Assembly (NCBI RefSeq): GCF_035968265.1
Contig: NZ_JAVYIM010000002.1
Coordinates: 310,001-374,000 of the forward strand
Reading direction: 5' to 3'
Source of the DNA: Nitrosarchaeum sp.
Lineage (GTDB): Archaea > Thermoproteota > Nitrososphaeria > Nitrososphaerales > Nitrosopumilaceae
DNA: 64,000 bases
Shown: one piece after another, positions 6,784 through 15,297 of the stretch
How positions within the stretch are numbered: position 1 is the stretch's first letter
Layout of the letters: the number at the start of each line of letters is the position of its first letter
The notes under the pieces: model-generated
Told to the model about the DNA's origin: nothing
Seen by the model: only the letters and a program-made list of their open reading frames with translations
Database searches by the model: none
Position numbers and translations under genes: made by a program

Positions 6784-6794
6784 TTCTATATAGT
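6784..6794 (+). promoter_or_regulatory. Candidate phosphate-regulon box upstream of pstS
   Basis: TTCTATATAGT, 72 nt before the pstS ATG. The same 11 bases occur upstream of the secreted-protein gene (8177-8187) and, on the minus strand, in the pstC/AbrB-PhoU divergent region (10092-10102). The core CTATATAG is palindromic. It may be an operator, a TATA element, or both. Confidence 0.5.
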
Positions 6795-6866
6795 TAACAG
6801 AGTGATATTGTTTTTTCGTAATCTATTATTGTCATTGCTAAATAAATTACAAAACATGATATTCTA

Positions 6867-8135
6867 ATGATAACAAAGACGACATCTATGCTTATGATCG
6901 CAACTATAGTTGCTATTATGGCACCACTAAATGTAAATGCTGAATCAGAACCTGCAGCTCCAAACACCAGTTTTGTTTATAACATAAATGGTGCTGGTGC
7001 TACATTTCCATTTCCGCTGATTGATCTATGGAGAGTAGAATACAATGCCGATTTTAAGAATGTAAACCTAAATTATCAATCAATTGGAAGTGGAGGTGGA
7101 ATTAAACAGCACATTGAAAAAACTGTGAACTTTGCAGCAACTGATGCACCATTAACTGTTAAAGAACGAGGTCTAGCTCCAAATACATTGCATATTCCTG
7201 AAACAATGGGAGGAGTAACCATACCATACAATATTCCTGAAATTCCTAAAAGTGGATTGAAACTAACTGGAAAAGTGATTTCTGGTATATTTCTTGGTGA
7301 AATTACTAAATGGAACGATCCATTAATCAAAGAACACAATCCTGGATTGAATCTTCCTAATCAAGATATTGTAGTGGCACACCGTTCAGATGGATCTGGA
7401 ACTACTTTCGTATTCACTGATTATCTTGCTACAGTTGATCCAGATGGTTGGAATGCAAAAGTAGGAAAAGGAAAATCGGTTCCTTGGCCAGTAGGTTTAG
7501 CTGCTGCAGGAAATGAGGGTGTTGCAGGAATTATAAAATCTACAACATATTCAATAGGGTATGTTGAATTAGCATATGCATTCCAAACTGGAATGACTGT
7601 TGCTTCTGTTCAAAATGGTGACAAAAATAAATTTGTTGAACCAACAATTGATAGTATTGCTGCTTCCGCAGCTAGTATTGTTGATAAACTTCCTGCATCT
7701 GAATCTGATTGGTCAGCAGTGTCTATGGTAAATGCCCCAGGTTCTAATTCATATCCTATCTCAAGTTTGACGTATCTTCTGTTATATGAAGATCTAAAAG
7801 ATACCTCAAAGAACAAAGAACAAGCAAAAACCACACTTCACATGATTCATTGGATGATAACTGATGGACAGGAATTTTCACATAGTCTGTTATATCCTAA
7901 ACTTCCAGACAATGTTGTGGAGCTGAGTAAGAAAGGATTATCTAAGGTAAAATACGACGGTGAAATTCTTTGGAACTATGATGTTAAAACTACATCTAAA
8001 ACAGAAACCAAAAATTCAAACATTCCAGATTGGATTAGAAACAATGCAAAATGGTGGGCAGATGGATTAATCACTGATGAGGACTATATCCAAGGACTGC
8101 AATATCTTATATCTCAAGGTATTCTAAAAGTCTAA
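6867..8135 (+). CDS. pstS: Phosphate-binding protein PstS with C-terminal WWADG module
   Basis: Signal peptide at residues 1-25 (ends NAESE). The mature domain begins INGAGATFPFPLIDLW, the usual PstS start, followed by SIGSGGGI and TDAPL phosphate-loop elements and HRSDGSGTTFVFTDYL, whose Ser/Arg/Asp/Thr residues bind the anion in the family. After the solute-binding domain (to about 375) a module beginning IPDWIRNNAKWW has been added at residues about 387-422; bacterial PstS lacks it. It is also found in the secreted protein at 800-2308. The extra module could anchor PstS to the S-layer, which is an inference. Delivers phosphate to PstCAB. Confidence 0.95.
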   Translation: MITKTTSMLMIATIVAIMAPLNVNAESEPAAPNTSFVYNINGAGATFPFPLIDLWRVEYNADFKNVNLNYQSIGSGGGIKQHIEKTVNFAATDAPLTVKERGLAPNTLHIPETMGGVTIPYNIPEIPKSGLKLTGKVISGIFLGEITKWNDPLIKEHNPGLNLPNQDIVVAHRSDGSGTTFVFTDYLATVDPDGWNAKVGKGKSVPWPVGLAAAGNEGVAGIIKSTTYSIGYVELAYAFQTGMTVASVQNGDKNKFVEPTIDSIAASAASIVDKLPASESDWSAVSMVNAPGSNSYPISSLTYLLLYEDLKDTSKNKEQAKTTLHMIHWMITDGQEFSHSLLYPKLPDNVVELSKKGLSKVKYDGEILWNYDVKTTSKTETKNSNIPDWIRNNAKWWADGLITDEDYIQGLQYLISQGILKV

Positions 8136-8176
8136 ATCTCTTTATTTTCTTTATTTTTTATTTTCTTTATTTTTTC
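8136..8176 (+). terminator. T-rich terminator region after pstS
   Basis: Repeated TTTATTTTCTTTATTTTT-like blocks immediately after the pstS stop, with no stem. This is consistent with an archaeal oligo-U terminator. It is followed directly by the next gene's phosphate box. Confidence 0.4.
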
Positions 8177-8187
8177 TTCTATATAGT
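8177..8187 (+). promoter_or_regulatory. Candidate phosphate-regulon box upstream of secreted protein
   Basis: TTCTATATAGT, identical to the element before pstS (6784-6794), 82 nt upstream of the ATG at 8270. Confidence 0.5.
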
Positions 8188-8269
8188 ACTACGATTACCA
8201 TCTATCATCATGTTCTATATGTAAAGAACATTGATTCAATTTATAGTACCTAAATTAATTTCTATATCA

Positions 8270-8956
8270 ATGAACTACAAAAAAATAGTGAGTGTCACGA
8301 CACTAAGTGTAATTGCAGTGTTTGCTATTACATCTTTTACAGGTCTTGATATTGCTGATATTGATGCAGCCACAGTTGCAGTTCAACCAGAAAAATTTGT
8401 GTTTGTTGAAAAAATTTCTACAACTGCAATATTTTCATTTCGAGATGGTACTGAAATTGTTCCAATCCAACTATTTTCTCAAAGTGGTGGGTTTGGTACT
8501 ACAACGTTGAATCAAGACGATGATCCAAAAGCACCATCTGGTGTTACTGGTCGAGCTAAACCTGCATTTACTATGGAAAAAATTGCAGGTGGAACACCAC
8601 TTCTTTATCACGCTGCTGATCAGGCTCAAAGAAATGCCTTAAATGCAGGAATGGAGTATCCGTTCAAATTCTTTGATGTTGAAGTACTAGTGGCTGCAGG
8701 CGGTGATGTAATTCGATCTTTCAAATACAAAGATTGTCAAATTACTAACTATGTTCTGGTTTCAAGGGCTGATAACGAAGAAGGTTACACTGGTAAAGGA
8801 TTTGCAGTTGTAGATCAATATGCATTCGAATGTAGTGGCTATACTCCAGGTAATCCTGCTATGGACACTATGAAAAAAACTGAGCATGCAAAAACAATCA
8901 GTTCAAGTGATCTAAAATCTACAAGCAGTTGGGAACACGGTTTCTATCAAAAATAA
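8270..8956 (+). CDS. Secreted protein of unknown function, phosphate-linked
   Basis: I chose ATG 8270 over the upstream TTG (8231) because it places a hydrophobic signal/anchor (residues about 8-25) right after MNYKKIV. The mature part is about 200 residues, beta-rich, with paired segments such as DVEVLVAAGGDVIRSFKYKD and two Cys (in KDCQITNY and FECSGYTPG) that could form a disulfide. I do not recognise the family. It lies between pstS and the AbrB-PhoU regulator, and its promoter region shares an 11-bp box with pstS and pstC, so a role in phosphate acquisition is inferred. Confidence 0.75.
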   Translation: MNYKKIVSVTTLSVIAVFAITSFTGLDIADIDAATVAVQPEKFVFVEKISTTAIFSFRDGTEIVPIQLFSQSGGFGTTTLNQDDDPKAPSGVTGRAKPAFTMEKIAGGTPLLYHAADQAQRNALNAGMEYPFKFFDVEVLVAAGGDVIRSFKYKDCQITNYVLVSRADNEEGYTGKGFAVVDQYAFECSGYTPGNPAMDTMKKTEHAKTISSSDLKSTSSWEHGFYQK

Positions 8957-9003
8957 ACCTCCCTTCTTTTTTTTATTTTACATAATAATATTTTTTGCGC
9001 GTT

Positions 9004-10047
9004 TTATTCTTCAGAAATAATACTCTGAATATTTTCATCGATTGCAACTTCTGCAATATCTCCTGAATATTCTATAATTCTCCTCAAATCTTCTAAAATA
9101 AATTTTATTACTGTTGAATTTTTTCCATTGTCGTTTATCTTTGACATAATTTCTTTTTCTTCCTCAATTATTTTGCTTACCTTTTCTGCAACATTTTCAG
9201 CTTTTTGAAAATCATGATTTTGAACAGACATCATTGATTCTTCAAAAACTTCTAGTGCTTTTTCAGATAATTTTTTAATTTTTGATATGGTTTTTAGATC
9301 AATTTCATCTTCAATAAATTTAATTCTCTTTGCAATTAGACTTGCATGATCTCCTATTCTTTCTATCTTGCCTACTATGGTTCTATATTCAAGACAATCT
9401 GATGGTCTTTTTAATCCCATATCTTCAAGTATACTTTGATTTTCAATTGCCAAAACTAAATTTCGCCGCATATACAATCCAAATCTATCTACCTCGTCAT
9501 CCATATTGATAACTTCATCTGCATGTGGAATGTCTTTTTCTTCTAAAGATTCTATTGCCTCTTTAATCATATTGATAGCCATTAGATGCATTCTCTTTAG
9601 TGCGGATTCAAATGACAATTCTGGCAATCTAGTTAAAATTTGAATAGTCATTGCCTCTGAACTAGATTCAACAATCTCGGTTCCTATCATAGATGAGTGG
9701 ACCAGCTCTCGTATACTTCTGGAATGTTCTGACGGAATCTTCATTCCCTTAGTCTTAATTTGAATAGTTTTATACCCTGCAAGATATGCTGCGATTATTT
9801 TTCTTTTGACTGATTCACCTGAATCTTTTTGACTTGAAATTATAGTGGCCGTAGTTTGATTTTTATCATTACCATGTTCTCTTGGAAATAGAGTTAATGA
9901 TTTGTTTGAATTTTTTACTATAGTTACATTTTCTCCGACTTTAATTTTTAATTCCTCAATCCATTCTTTTGGCATTGATATGATGTATGTGGAACCTCCA
10001 CTAAGCTGAATTTTCCTTGTTTGTTTAGTGTTTTCAGATAGTTTCAC
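9004..10047 (-). CDS. AbrB-domain/PhoU fusion, predicted phosphate regulator
   Basis: 347 residues with a GTG start (CAC at 10045-10047). Residues about 8-52 are a SpoVT/AbrB-type swapped-hairpin DNA-binding domain (KIQLSGGSTYIISMPKEWIEEL). From about 130 two PhoU-like three-helix units follow (for example MNMDDEVDRFGLYMRRN and RIGDHASLIAKRIKF; ERIGDH is the PhoU hallmark). The architecture joins a DNA-binding head to a phosphate-signalling PhoU body and is known in archaea. It is transcribed divergently from pstC across a 116-nt region holding the shared box, which makes it the obvious candidate regulator of the Pst genes; that link is inferred. Confidence 0.88.
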   Translation of the reverse strand: MKLSENTKQTRKIQLSGGSTYIISMPKEWIEELKIKVGENVTIVKNSNKSLTLFPREHGNDKNQTTATIISSQKDSGESVKRKIIAAYLAGYKTIQIKTKGMKIPSEHSRSIRELVHSSMIGTEIVESSSEAMTIQILTRLPELSFESALKRMHLMAINMIKEAIESLEEKDIPHADEVINMDDEVDRFGLYMRRNLVLAIENQSILEDMGLKRPSDCLEYRTIVGKIERIGDHASLIAKRIKFIEDEIDLKTISKIKKLSEKALEVFEESMMSVQNHDFQKAENVAEKVSKIIEEEKEIMSKINDNGKNSTVIKFILEDLRRIIEYSGDIAEVAIDENIQSIISEE

Positions 10048-10091
10048 TGTCTATTTTACAGAAATTTTACTAATTACAATTTAGTCGATGA

Positions 10092-10102
10092 ACTATATAG
10101 AA
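10092..10102 (-). promoter_or_regulatory. Candidate phosphate-regulon box in pstC divergent promoter
   Basis: Minus-strand TTCTATATAGT, identical to the elements at 6784-6794 and 8177-8187. It lies 45 nt from the GTG of the AbrB-PhoU gene and 61 nt from the ATG of pstC, so it could serve both directions. Confidence 0.5.
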
Positions 10103-10163: not shown

Positions 10164-11135
10164 ATGAATAAAGTAAATCTGAATATAAAACAAAGAAAAA
10201 TAATTTCAGATAAAATATTCAAGATCGGGGTTACTGTTGCTGGTGCATATGTTTTGGTAGTAGTTGTATTGATAGCATTTCAACTAGTCTCAGAATCATA
10301 TCCTGTATGGGAGGAAGAAGGATTGTCATTTATCACAAAAACAGATTGGAATGCCGTGGAAGGTAGAGAATCATTTGGTGCACTGCCTTATATTTTGGGT
10401 ACACTGACTACATCCGCAATTGCAATGATGATCGGTGTTCCGCTAAGCATAGGAATTGCAATGTTTATCTCAGATGCCCCTCCTAAAATTGGAGCTCCTC
10501 TGGGCTTTTTGGTAGAACTTTTAGCTGCAGTCCCAAGTGTAATTTATGGACTATGGGGATTGTATGTTTTTAGAATTTATTTTCGAGATTGGTTTGAAAC
10601 CCCATTACATGATGCATTTGGAGATAATATTTGGTTGTTTTCTGGTAATCCATATGGATTGGATATTCTAACTGCAAGCGTTATACTTGCAATTATGATA
10701 ATTCCAACCGTTTCTGCAGTATCTCGAGAGATAATGAAGGCTGTCCCTCAACAACAAAAGGAGGCAGCTTACATGCTTGGTGCAACAAAATGGGAGATGT
10801 TCAAACTCGCAATATTTCCATATTCCAAAACTGGATTGATAGGTGCTTCTATTCTAGGTCTAGGCCGAGCTGTCGGTGAAACAATGGCAGTCACAATGCT
10901 AATTGGAAATGCAACTGGACTTGGTGCAATTCCATCATCGTTATTCGGTCCCAGTCAAACCATGTCAAGTATTATTGCAAACGAATTCGTTGAAGCATCA
11001 CCTGCATCTATTCATATGCCTGCACTAATTGGAATTGGGTTGATTCTTTTGTTAATTGCTATTGTGATTAATGTAGTTGCTCATTTGCTTGTAACAAGAA
11101 TGTTAAAAATTAAAGAAGGTGCAATTAATAATTGA
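10164..11135 (+). CDS. pstC: Phosphate ABC transporter permease PstC
   Basis: 323 residues with about six membrane helices. An N-terminal helix (about 22-46) is followed by a periplasmic loop (YPVWEEEGLSFITKTDW) typical of PstC, and the EAA cytoplasmic loop KEAAYMLGATKWEMFKLAIFPYS contacts PstB. The AVGETMAVTMLIGN segment is a strong PstC signature. First gene of pstC-pstA-pstB-phoU; its stop overlaps the TTG start of pstA by 4 nt. Confidence 0.96.
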   Translation: MNKVNLNIKQRKIISDKIFKIGVTVAGAYVLVVVVLIAFQLVSESYPVWEEEGLSFITKTDWNAVEGRESFGALPYILGTLTTSAIAMMIGVPLSIGIAMFISDAPPKIGAPLGFLVELLAAVPSVIYGLWGLYVFRIYFRDWFETPLHDAFGDNIWLFSGNPYGLDILTASVILAIMIIPTVSAVSREIMKAVPQQQKEAAYMLGATKWEMFKLAIFPYSKTGLIGASILGLGRAVGETMAVTMLIGNATGLGAIPSSLFGPSQTMSSIIANEFVEASPASIHMPALIGIGLILLLIAIVINVVAHLLVTRMLKIKEGAINN

Positions 11136-12058
11136 ATGATATTCAAACCAGAAGACAAGAATATCGTTTATTATTCAAACAAAATGTTGCAAAAAGATTA
11201 TTTGTAGATAAGATTGTTCGAATAATTGTTTTTTCTTGTGTAATAATTGCGATTATCCCATTAGGCAGTATCTTGGTTGAAGTATTCAAAAACGGTATAA
11301 CTGCAATTAGTATTGAATTTTTAACTGAAACTCCTGGTTCTATTGGTTCTGGGGAAGGGGGAATAGGACCTGCCATTCAAGGAACTTTGATAATTATTGG
11401 ATTGTCTAGTTTAATTGGTGTTCCAATAGGTGTGATGTCTGGTATTTTTCTTTCTGAATACGGTGACAACAAACTTGCAAAATCAATTCGATTCTTTAAT
11501 GATGTTTTTATGGAATTTCCATCAATCATTCTTGGAATCTTTGCATTTTTGATAATTGTTTTAGTTCTTGGTCATTTCTCAGTTTGGGCTGGAGCATTTG
11601 CCTTGTCTTTGATAATGTTTCCAATTGTTGCCCGAACTACAGAAGAGTCATTGAAGATGGTGCCAATGACTTATCGTGAAGCTGGAACTGCATTAGGACT
11701 AAAAAAATGGATTATCACATTTAGAATTGTAATCTCCGCTGCAAAGAGCGGTATGATTACTGGAATACTGCTTTCTGTATCTCGAATTGGTGGCGAGACA
11801 GCTCCTCTAATCATGACAATTCTTGGAAGTAGTCAATTCTTTAGCAGTATGGATACGCCTATGGATGCTTTACCTTTGAGAATATGGCGACTTTCTTTAT
11901 TGCCTTATGATAGTGCCCAACTTCAGGGATGGGGGGCTGCATTAGTTTTGATTATGATTATACTTGGAATTAATTTGGGAGTCAGATATTATTTTTCAAA
12001 TAAAAAAAATCTATTTTTTGGTAAATTCATCAAACAGAGGAGAAATACTATAAAATGA
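11132..12058 (+). CDS. pstA: Phosphate ABC transporter permease PstA
   Basis: TTG start at 11132 overlapping the pstC stop; no in-frame ATG lies close. 308 residues, six predicted helices, with the EAA loop [21 protein letters not shown] and the PstA-type [11 protein letters not shown]-like segment ([21 protein letters not shown]). Forms the channel with PstC. The downstream pstB start overlaps its stop (ATGA, 12055-12058), with a good ribosome-binding site (gaggag) about 12 nt before it. Confidence 0.96.
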
Positions 12059-12888
12059 CTGCATTGAGTACAAAACCAACTGATATGGAGACATCTCATC
12101 TTACTAACATCGATTCAAAATCTATTGAATCAAAATACAAAATGATTGCAGAAAATGTTACAGTAAGTTATGACGGTATAGAAGCAGTGAAAAATGTCAC
12201 CATGAAATTCAAAGAAAAATCTGTCACCGCATTAATCGGTCCATCTGGTTGTGGAAAAACTACGTTTCTTCGATGTCTAAACAGAATGCATGATATGACA
12301 AAAAACGCCAAAGTTACAGGTAAAGTCATGATTGACGATATTGATCTTTATTCAAAAGATATTGATCCAATTTATCACCGAAGAAAAGTTGGAATGGTTT
12401 TCCAAAAACCAAATCCGTTTCCAACCATGTCTATTTTTGATAATGTAACTGCAGGACTCCGACTAAATGGAGTTCGTGATAAACGAATTCTTGATGAAAT
12501 TGTTGAGGATTCTTTGAAGATGGCTTATCTTTGGGACGAAGTAAAAAATGATCTAAAAAAGTCTGCAATTGAATTGTCTGGTGGTCAACAACAACGTCTT
12601 TGTATTGCTAGAGCACTTGCTATACAACCTGAAGTATTATTGATGGATGAGCCCGCATCAGCACTTGATCCAATCGCCACTCAAAAAATTGAAGAAACAA
12701 TTACAGAATTAAAAAAAGATTATGCTATAATTATTGTAACTCATAATATGCAACAAGCAATCCGTGTTTCAGATTACACTGGATTCATGTATCTGGGCGA
12801 CCTAATAGAATTCCGTGAAACAAAGAAACTATTCACAGATCCTAAAGATGAACTAACTGCAAAATATGTGCAAGGACATTTTGGTTAA
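12055..12888 (+). CDS. pstB: Phosphate ABC transporter ATPase PstB
   Basis: 277 residues. Walker [10 protein letters not shown] at 62-70, [16 protein letters not shown] after the Q-loop (a PstB hallmark), signature ELSGGQQQR at about 173-181, and Walker B LLMDEP at about 195-200. It has an N-terminal extension of about 28 residues before the ABC domain. It powers PstC/PstA. The stop is immediately followed by the phoU ATG with no gap. Confidence 0.97.
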
Positions 12889-13554
12889 ATGACTCGTCTG
12901 ATAGATCCATCATTGCACAAGTTGTCATTTATCATGTCTGAAATGGGAGATATGGTAATTGAATCCATCTCTTTGGCTATTGATTCGTATCTGACAGGAA
13001 CAAATACAAAAGATCAGGTTCTCAAATTATCTGATTCTATACGTGTAAAATATTATGAAGTAGAAGATCTCACATTTGATATGCTATTAAAATATCAGCC
13101 GGTTGCAGATGATTTTAGACTAATTCGTTCGTCTACAGAAATTTCATACGCATTTTCTAGATTTGGAAGATATGCTTACGATATCACTCTTGTTCGAGAT
13201 TTGTTTGGTGATGTATCTGAATGTACCAATGCATCACTTGTTGAATCCACAAAAAAAGTAAAACACATGATCAAAGAAGCTGTTTTATCATTTGCTGAAC
13301 TGGATATTCGAAAAGCTATTGAAATTAGAGAAGATGAAAAATTCATTGATCAAATTTATCGTGAAAGACTACCAAAACTTATAGAATCTACTAATACCAG
13401 ATGTGCCCTTGCTGAAGCACTTTTGTTGCGATATTTGGAACGAATTGGCGATCATGCCGTATTCATGAGTGATGCAATTAATTACATTGTTACTGGCAAA
13501 CACCGCCCAACAGATGAACGAATTGCCTCACATACAAAAACTGAACAAAATTAA
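12889..13554 (+). CDS. phoU: Phosphate transport regulator PhoU
   Basis: 221 residues, two PhoU three-helix repeats (about 7-95 and 110-205). The metal/phosphate-site motif ERIGDHAVFMSDAINYIVTG near the end and FSRFGRYAYDI in repeat one are typical. It begins one base after pstB, so it is co-translated. In bacteria PhoU throttles Pst and relays phosphate status; the archaeal role is inferred to be similar. With the AbrB-PhoU and DUF47 proteins it is the third PhoU-like protein in 5 kb. Confidence 0.95.
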   Translation: MTRLIDPSLHKLSFIMSEMGDMVIESISLAIDSYLTGTNTKDQVLKLSDSIRVKYYEVEDLTFDMLLKYQPVADDFRLIRSSTEISYAFSRFGRYAYDITLVRDLFGDVSECTNASLVESTKKVKHMIKEAVLSFAELDIRKAIEIREDEKFIDQIYRERLPKLIESTNTRCALAEALLLRYLERIGDHAVFMSDAINYIVTGKHRPTDERIASHTKTEQN

Positions 13555-13670: not shown

Positions 13671-14300
13671 ATGGGGCACATGTTTTCATGGATAAAATCA
13701 AATGATAAAGAAATTTTGCTGATTCTTGATAGTTTAGCTAAAAAAGCAGTTGAAACTGCTGAAGCGCTAGTTGTTTTGTTTTCAGATCTTAGTAATGTAG
13801 AACAACATGCAAAAATCAAACGACTTGAAAATGAAGCTGATATTCTTACGCGCGATATTTTTTCTGAACTAAATAAAACATTCATCACTCCTCTAGATCG
13901 TGAGGATATGCAAAGAATAGCCTCAAAAATAGACGATGTGATTGATTTCATGGATGGAATTTCTGCACGAACCCATAGCTACAAAATCACTACGACTCCC
14001 CCATATGCTCTAGAAATGGCAAGGGAGTTAGTCAACGCAACAAAAGAAGTTCAATACATAGTATCAAAATTAAACAATATTAAAAATGCTCAAGACATGA
14101 TATCTCATTGCAGAACAACAAGTATAATTGAGCATACCGTCGATGACTTGTATAGACAATCTATTGAAAAACTTTTTGAAAGCAATGACGCAATTCACAT
14201 AATTAAATTAAAAGATATTTACGAAACAATGGAAACTGCATCAGATAGATGTGTGGATGTTGCAGACGTTATTGAAGATATAGTTCTAAAATACACTTAG
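13671..14300 (+). CDS. DUF47/PhoU-like PiT-associated protein
   Basis: 209 residues, all-helical, with the DUF47 pattern: E-N-E-A-D motif (KRLENEADILTRDIFSELNKTFITPLDREDM) at about 47-80 and DRCVDVADVIEDIVLKY at the C-terminus. DUF47 genes lie next to PiT permeases throughout bacteria and archaea and are thought to control or assist them. Here it is 7 nt upstream of pit. ATG 13680 is an alternative start. Confidence 0.93.
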   Translation: MGHMFSWIKSNDKEILLILDSLAKKAVETAEALVVLFSDLSNVEQHAKIKRLENEADILTRDIFSELNKTFITPLDREDMQRIASKIDDVIDFMDGISARTHSYKITTTPPYALEMARELVNATKEVQYIVSKLNNIKNAQDMISHCRTTSIIEHTVDDLYRQSIEKLFESNDAIHIIKLKDIYETMETASDRCVDVADVIEDIVLKYT

Positions 14301-14307
14301 TGATGTT

Positions 14308-15297
14308 ATGTATGAATTAGCAATAGGTGCAATAATAGCAGCATTAATTTTTGATTTTGTAAATGGTTTTAATGATGCTGCTAATTCTGTAGCTACTGTC
14401 ATTGGTACTCGAGTCTTAAAACCAATTCACGCCGTATTGTTATCTGCAGTAGCTAATTTTGCAGGACCGTTCATTTTTGGAGTTGCAGTAGCTATGACCA
14501 TCTCCAAGGGAATCATCAATCCTGATGATGTTACAATCTACATGATTCTTGGCGGATTGTCTGCAGCCATTACTTGGGGTACTCTTTGCACTCATTTTGG
14601 TTTGCCAATTTCAAACAGTCACTCTTTGATTGGAGGATTGATAGGAGCTGGAATTGCAGGAGTGGGAATTGAAAATTTACTTTTAGATGGAATGACTAAA
14701 ACATTAACTGGAATTATAGTGTCTCCTCTTGGTGGTATGGCAATTGGATTTCTTTTTGCTGGAATAATTATTGCAGTGTTTGCATCAAAACCTCCTCAAA
14801 AAGTAAATTATTCATTTGGAAAATTACAACTAATATCATCAGCATGGTTTGCATTAACTCATGGTGCAAATGATGGGCAAAAAGTAATGGGTATAATTGT
14901 TTTAATTTTATTCTCTGAGGGATTGATAACTGATGTTGCAGATGTACCAATATGGGTAATACTTGCGGCTGCATCTGCTATTGCCCTTGGAACCTTCTTT
15001 GGAGGTTACAAAGTTATCAAGACACTAGGTATGAAAATTGCTAGATTGAGACCTTATCAGGGCTTTGCAGCAGAAACTGGTGGTGGAATTGTATTGGCCA
15101 TATTTGCATTCTTTGGAATTCCTGCTAGTACAACACATGCTATTACTGGCTCTATTATGGGTGCAGGTGCAGTTCGTAGAAAACGTGCAGTACGTTGGGG
15201 AGTTGGAAAAAGAATTGTATTTGCTTGGTTGATTACTATTCCTGGTGCAGCTGCAATTGCGTACGTGGTAACAATTATCCTTAATTTTTTCATATAA
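14308..15297 (+). CDS. pit: PiT-family low-affinity phosphate permease
   Basis: 329 residues, multi-spanning. Both PiT signature repeats are present: FVNGFNDAANSVATVIGTRVL at the N-terminus and ALTHGANDGQKVMGIIVLIL in the middle, plus FGIPASTTHAITGSIMG-like conserved segments. It carries phosphate (as metal-phosphate) driven by H+ or Na+. It is co-transcribed with the DUF47 gene, so the organism has both Pst and PiT routes side by side. Confidence 0.95.
   Translation: MYELAIGAIIAALIFDFVNGFNDAANSVATVIGTRVLKPIHAVLLSAVANFAGPFIFGVAVAMTISKGIINPDDVTIYMILGGLSAAITWGTLCTHFGLPISNSHSLIGGLIGAGIAGVGIENLLLDGMTKTLTGIIVSPLGGMAIGFLFAGIIIAVFASKPPQKVNYSFGKLQLISSAWFALTHGANDGQKVMGIIVLILFSEGLITDVADVPIWVILAAASAIALGTFFGGYKVIKTLGMKIARLRPYQGFAAETGGGIVLAIFAFFGIPASTTHAITGSIMGAGAVRRKRAVRWGVGKRIVFAWLITIPGAAAIAYVVTIILNFFI

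Follow-up and report, generated by a model that had tools for sequence, protein, structure and literature searches.

A palindromic octamer conserved at phosphate-gene promoters of ammonia-oxidising archaea, a likely operator with AbrB-PhoU proteins as candidate binders

In the 64,000-nucleotide stretch of the Nitrosarchaeum sp. genome analysed here (contig NZ_JAVYIM010000002.1, positions 310,001 to 374,000; hereafter the window), three intergenic regions among the phosphate genes carry an identical 11-bp box. What is conserved and informative in it is its core, the palindromic octamer CTATATAG. We consider it likely that this octamer serves as operator in a phosphate regulon of ammonia-oxidising archaea (AOA) and is bound by an AbrB-PhoU family regulator acting as a dimer. 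A first interpretation, made from the letters of the window alone (the sequence-only reading), had proposed a phosphate operator at this place, and the proposal is strongly supported by the clustering of the box upstream of phosphate genes, by its fixed positions and by the way in which it follows the regulon as the content of the regulon changes from genome to genome.

The three copies lie at 6784-6794 on the plus strand (core 6786-6793, centred 77.5 nt before the pstS ATG), at 8177-8187 on the plus strand (core 8179-8186, centred 87.5 nt before the ATG at 8270 of secU, which encodes a secreted protein) and at 10092-10102 on the minus strand (core 10093-10100), where a single box is common to the divergent genes AbrB-PhoU-1 and pstC, 49.5 nt away from the former's GTG and 67.5 nt from the latter's ATG. 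All three had been picked out by the sequence-only reading and were found again as exact copies; its impression that the window holds no other extends to the entire genome (G000; 1.53 Mb in 8 contigs, 99.8% complete), in which a pattern search returned no fourth exact 11-mer. Markov models of order 1-3 predict 1.0-1.5 exact copies per genome, and the probability that three random places would fall inside one 3.3-kb span is ~1.4e-5, in keeping with the earlier view that chance identity is unlikely. The one-mismatch scan that had been suggested was of no help: the 11-mer with one mismatch occurs 40 times in the genome and is uninformative because its reversed control outnumbers it, whereas the exact octamer is informative. 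CTATATAG, which within Nitrosarchaeum reads TTCTATATAGT or TTCTATATAGA, is present at 8 places in G000 against 10-17 expected (half of the two-strand figure, as a self-complementary word reads alike on both strands) and against 35 for its reversal; a deficit of 8 against 10-17 is mild, and we do not claim strong genomic depletion. Three of these 8 places are the window boxes, and another lies outside the window, in the promoter of a paralogous gene, AbrB-PhoU-2 (C6:239,160-240,200). No direct repeats such as those of the bacterial PhoB Pho box were found at the site, the conserved unit being a single 8-bp palindrome, and the sequence flanking the octamer differs from one gene class to another.

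Within Nitrosarchaeum, pst-bearing loci have the box at pstS, at secU and in the divergent AbrB-PhoU-1/pstC region, and DUF47-PiT, which there follows phoU, has none of its own. Five Nitrosarchaeum genomes in which neither pst nor AbrB-PhoU-1 was seen at the scanned locus have the box at DUF47-PiT, at secU or at both, and the element therefore tracks phosphate transport rather than one neighbourhood. In each of the ten Nitrosarchaeum pstS promoters that show the box (two of them with ...TATAGA and one with GTCTATATAGT), its centre is 77.5 nt ahead of the ATG, and the secU box lies 87.5 or 88.5 nt from the conserved secU ATG. Beyond the genus, the box recurs at the orthologous promoters of pstS, secU, pstC/AbrB-PhoU-1, DUF47-PiT and AbrB-PhoU-2, in Nitrosopumilus, Nitrosotenuis and Nitrosotalea as well as in other families of the order; the sequence-only reading had regarded a lack of conservation at the pst loci of relatives as evidence against an operator, and what was found there is conservation. 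By promoter class, the octamer is present at 56 of 74 pstS promoters (many of the remainder belong to a second, unboxed pstS-like paralog), 31 of 33 for secU, 50 of 59 for pstC, 55 of 64 for AbrB-PhoU-1, 17 of 23 for DUF47 and 21 of 22 for AbrB-PhoU-2. In the other families (chiefly f8, including several large genomes) it is found at pstS (55-64 nt), at pstC (71-79 nt) and at AbrB-PhoU-2, in that case 21 bp ahead of a TATA-like ATATATAG. When octamers were counted without bias over 81 non-redundant phosphate promoters, CTATATAG came top, being present in 60 of them, and the second-best palindrome was in 5. The spread over unrelated promoters that had likewise been named as counterevidence was not seen: within 110 bp upstream of non-phosphate genes the octamer occurs at 0 of 63 in the window, and at non-phosphate genes of related loci it occurs at 15 of 677.

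The position of the box is conserved too. Measured from the box centre to the predicted start codon, the distance for pstS is 77.5/78.5 nt (Nitrosarchaeum, Nitrosopumilus and most Nitrosotenuis) or 67.5/68.5 nt, for secU 87.5/88.5 or 77.5/78.5, for pstC 67.5/68.5, for DUF47 58.5, 48.5 or 67.5, and for AbrB-PhoU-2 26.5 or 15.5; the Nitrosotalea group has a further AbrB-PhoU-2 site at 47.5. Lineage-to-lineage shifts are thus mostly of about one helical turn, and the best period is ~10.3 bp (p<5e-5 for 11 well-defined distance classes; p=0.0066 when all 17 are used, some of them for genes with uncertain start codons). The two octamers of the Nitrosotalea-group AbrB-PhoU-2 promoters are exactly 21 bp, or two helical turns, apart (L137:1953-1981, and also in L229, L233 and L252).

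It is most likely the AbrB-PhoU proteins that bind the box, as judged from their domains and from where the box is conserved. AbrB-PhoU-1 (9004-10047, minus strand) combines an AbrB/MazE-type DNA-binding domain (35.4 bits against a Pfam cut-off of 24.7; 45.2 bits in AbrB-PhoU-2), an Alba-like middle and a PhoU domain (PF01895, 70.7 bits), and PhoU structures are found for it by both sequence and fold. Its AlphaFold model contains a PhoU bundle, with 1t72 as the closest solved PhoU, and an AbrB part that is of low confidence as a monomer. Residues 66-137, between AbrB and PhoU, are predicted to form a beta-alpha-beta-alpha-beta-beta domain that resembles Alba, the match of this middle domain being weak (E 0.2-0.5, probability near 1); if it is truly DNA-binding, it would give the regulator two DNA-binding domains. 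The two paralogs are 38% identical, and identity is higher in the AbrB recognition part (52%) than elsewhere (29-44%, with 29% in the C-terminal PhoU part). The most deeply conserved copy of the box is the one in the AbrB-PhoU-2 promoter, 26.5 bp before the start in G000, and the sole WCTATATAGW of the small g19 genome G035 lies in this same promoter; such a placement is what one usually sees when a transcription factor controls its own gene. The genes next to AbrB-PhoU-2, for a PUA-domain protein and NAC, are less likely targets of this box, as their distance from it varies (58-70 nt, and ~170 nt in g19) while that to AbrB-PhoU-2 is a constant 26.5 in most genera. The sequence-only reading had put forward the AbrB-PhoU protein of the window as the binder. 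As a family these proteins stay candidates, given the box at AbrB-PhoU-2, but the pst-linked AbrB-PhoU-1 as sole binder is out, because Nitrosarchaeum genomes without its gene keep the box at PiT, at secU or at both.

The box, its position and conservation, the content of the regulon and the domains of the AbrB-PhoU proteins are all features of the sequence itself, and from them we infer a binder, a sign of regulation and a signal. AbrB-PhoU-2 would most likely be the regulator and AbrB-PhoU-1 its pst-linked partner or paralog; a dimer would grip the palindrome through its AbrB domains, and the PhoU domain would report phosphate status. Relative to the core-promoter position near -26, the site is some 2-6 helical turns upstream at pstS, secU, pstC/AbrB-PhoU-1 and DUF47-PiT, on a similar face of the DNA, an upstream placement as expected of an activator site; at AbrB-PhoU-2 it usually covers the TATA position, as expected of autorepression. 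It is tempting to extend this to an order-wide switch, free of any two-component system and present in essentially all AOA, in which a one-component AbrB/Alba-like/PhoU protein would sense phosphate status and read the 8-bp palindrome by helical phasing, acting as an autorepressor at its own TATA and as an upstream activator of the transporters and of a secreted Hcp-like surface protein; we put forward this wider version tentatively, as an appreciable possibility.

Among the alternatives, the box might be a site of repression everywhere, with the repressor coming off at low phosphate; this would account for the overlap with the TATA position at AbrB-PhoU-2, for the overlap with the start region in g19 and for the paired sites of the Nitrosotalea group. 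Such a reading is conceivable and rather unlikely: at pstS, secU, pstC and DUF47 the box is far upstream of the core promoter, a poor location for simple occlusion, and the helical phasing points to contact with the transcription machinery.

Slightly less probable still is a phosphate operator with some other binder, for example a winged-helix or small AbrB protein, of which the AbrB-PhoU genes would merely be regulated targets. The genome does encode further AbrB-domain proteins (two of 66 aa, one of 328 aa and a further weak match). What speaks for the AbrB-PhoU family itself is that the deepest-conserved copy sits at AbrB-PhoU-2's own promoter even in genomes with few or no other sites, and that these proteins join DNA-binding and phosphate-signalling domains.

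A specialised core promoter, in which an alternative TBP or TFB would use CTATATAG as its TATA and produce leaders of ~25-60 nt, seems improbable, as does the shared basal promoter that the sequence-only reading had kept as its own alternative. The octamer is TATA-like, it usually overlaps the core promoter at AbrB-PhoU-2, lying at exactly -26.5 in most genera, and little TATA signal is left in those promoters when it is masked. A basal TATA box would be expected ~26 nt before the start in all boxed genes, and AbrB-PhoU-2 is the only one where this is so; the predicted starts of pstS, secU, pstC and DUF47 are 40-88 nt away. When a TATA matrix was built from 171 non-phosphate promoters, its matches in that set peaked 24-28 nt upstream of the start, consistent with leaderless mRNAs; CTATATAG scores -9.3 on this matrix. 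With the box masked, a TATA-like peak at 24-28 nt is found in 75% of DUF47, 36% of AbrB-PhoU-1 and 32% of pstS promoters, so that in most promoters the box counts as an upstream element; these separate elements near -26 led us to reject a basal TATA box as the explanation at most sites. No clear matrix peak at -26 was detected for secU or pstC, which would suit a core promoter. In g19 genomes, however, the AbrB-PhoU-2 octamer is at -15.5 with a separate ATATATTTA upstream, whole-turn shifts between lineages would not be expected of leader lengths, and a perfect palindrome is directionless whereas a core promoter is directional. Finally, chance similarity among AT-rich promoters, to which the AT-richness of the genome and the lack of enrichment of one-mismatch copies might lend some colour, is refuted to near certainty by conservation, as CTATATAG tops the count in divergent promoters of several families at fixed positions and is present upstream of pstC (67.5 nt) even in G018, which has few octamers genome-wide.

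Several points weigh against an AbrB-PhoU-bound phosphate operator as we propose it. About half of the octamers in eight representative genomes are away from phosphate genes, among them a conserved site between the aspartate-kinase and ilvE genes. The lower of the two periodicity p-values is partly post hoc, its classes having been picked after the data were seen, and AbrB-PhoU-1 (50/60 nt) and the Nitrosotalea-group pstC (~80 nt) fit the period less well. The missing matrix peaks at secU and pstC count on this side too, the sign of regulation is a guess from site position, and other DNA-binding proteins might be what binds the box.

As to the aspartate-kinase/ilvE region, a non-coding block of high conservation (GGGTTTGTTCTTGG...GCCCGGCGTTACCCAAAACACGCG), close to a CTATATAG, occupies L126:2060-2330 and recurs at the same place in L081, L095, L099, L135 and L143, across five genera. 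No Rfam family matches at gathering score and ARAGORN calls no tRNA there; the block is possibly an undescribed small RNA gene.

In the window itself, pstS (6867-8135, plus strand; Pfam PF12849) encodes a phosphate-binding protein and is preceded by a candidate TATA-like element, TAAATAAA (6839-6846, plus strand), ~24.5 nt before its start. This element scores low on the TATA matrix, GCTAAATAAA is conserved at it in all aligned Nitrosarchaeum pstS promoters, and its position suggests a leaderless pstS mRNA. For secU (8270-8956, plus strand) the start was reassigned, ATG 8270 probably being used rather than TTG 8231; a candidate TATA-like element TTTATAGT (8240-8247, plus strand), 26.5 nt before this ATG, comes from visual alignment and received no support from the TATA matrix scan. 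The secU protein has no Pfam or NCBIfam family, and its predicted model (pLDDT 65), a beta fold, matches Hcp and contractile-injection tail-tube proteins (E ~3e-6). Orthologs were examined in L133, L125 and L140, and some of the versions in Nitrosarchaeum, Nitrosopumilus and g4 are ~530 aa long, apparently with repeated units. Downstream of the divergent box, and all on the plus strand, follow pstC (10164-11135) and pstA (11132-12058), both PF00528, pstB (12055-12888; PF00005), phoU (12889-13554; PF01895, PhoU domains without AbrB), the gene of a DUF47 (PhoU_div) Pit accessory protein (13671-14300; without a box in the window) and that of a PiT phosphate transporter (14308-15297; PF01384). A second pstS-like gene at 800-2308, 52% identical to pstS, has no box, and neither do its orthologs in most related loci.

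In the bacterial PhoB Pho box, a two-component response regulator binds direct repeats of 11 bp. The AOA box resembles it in being a cis element common to pst and further phosphate-uptake promoters and in lying ahead of the core promoter, and differs in being a single short palindrome with AbrB-PhoU as its candidate binder. The nearest precedent is haloarchaeal: in Halobacterium salinarum, pst induction is reported to depend on pho-boxes to which PhoU regulators bind (Furtwangler et al. 2010 as cited in PMC6560208). Both are archaeal cis elements in pst promoters; the haloarchaeal one has been tested experimentally whereas the AOA box is known from sequence, and CTATATAG occurs across an order, with the candidate regulator's own promoter among its sites. 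The domain combination of the AOA proteins, AbrB with PhoU, is also that of Thermococcus kodakarensis TK2245, an AbrB/SpoVT-type protein listed as chromosome-associated (PMC7325993); the passage on this protein gives no operator for it, whereas for AOA an operator and a regulon are proposed here. Phosphate availability is described as shaping the distribution of marine AOA (PMC7490402), and phoU beside pst/pit as the most strongly differentiated gene between Nitrosopelagicus ocean populations (PMC9239043); the passages of these two papers that deal with phosphate genes describe pst, pit and phoU and no cis element. Among the papers searched, none gave a regulator or regulatory motif of AOA phosphate genes, and with the haloarchaeal precedent we therefore regard the element as an archaeal Pho box with a sequence, position rules and a regulon of its own. 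As a short, rare and position-conserved operator with a named candidate regulator, it makes the regulon directly testable; it lets regulon members, the secreted Hcp-like protein included, be read from genomes, and the regulon so delimited may serve as a marker of phosphate stress in environmental transcriptomes.

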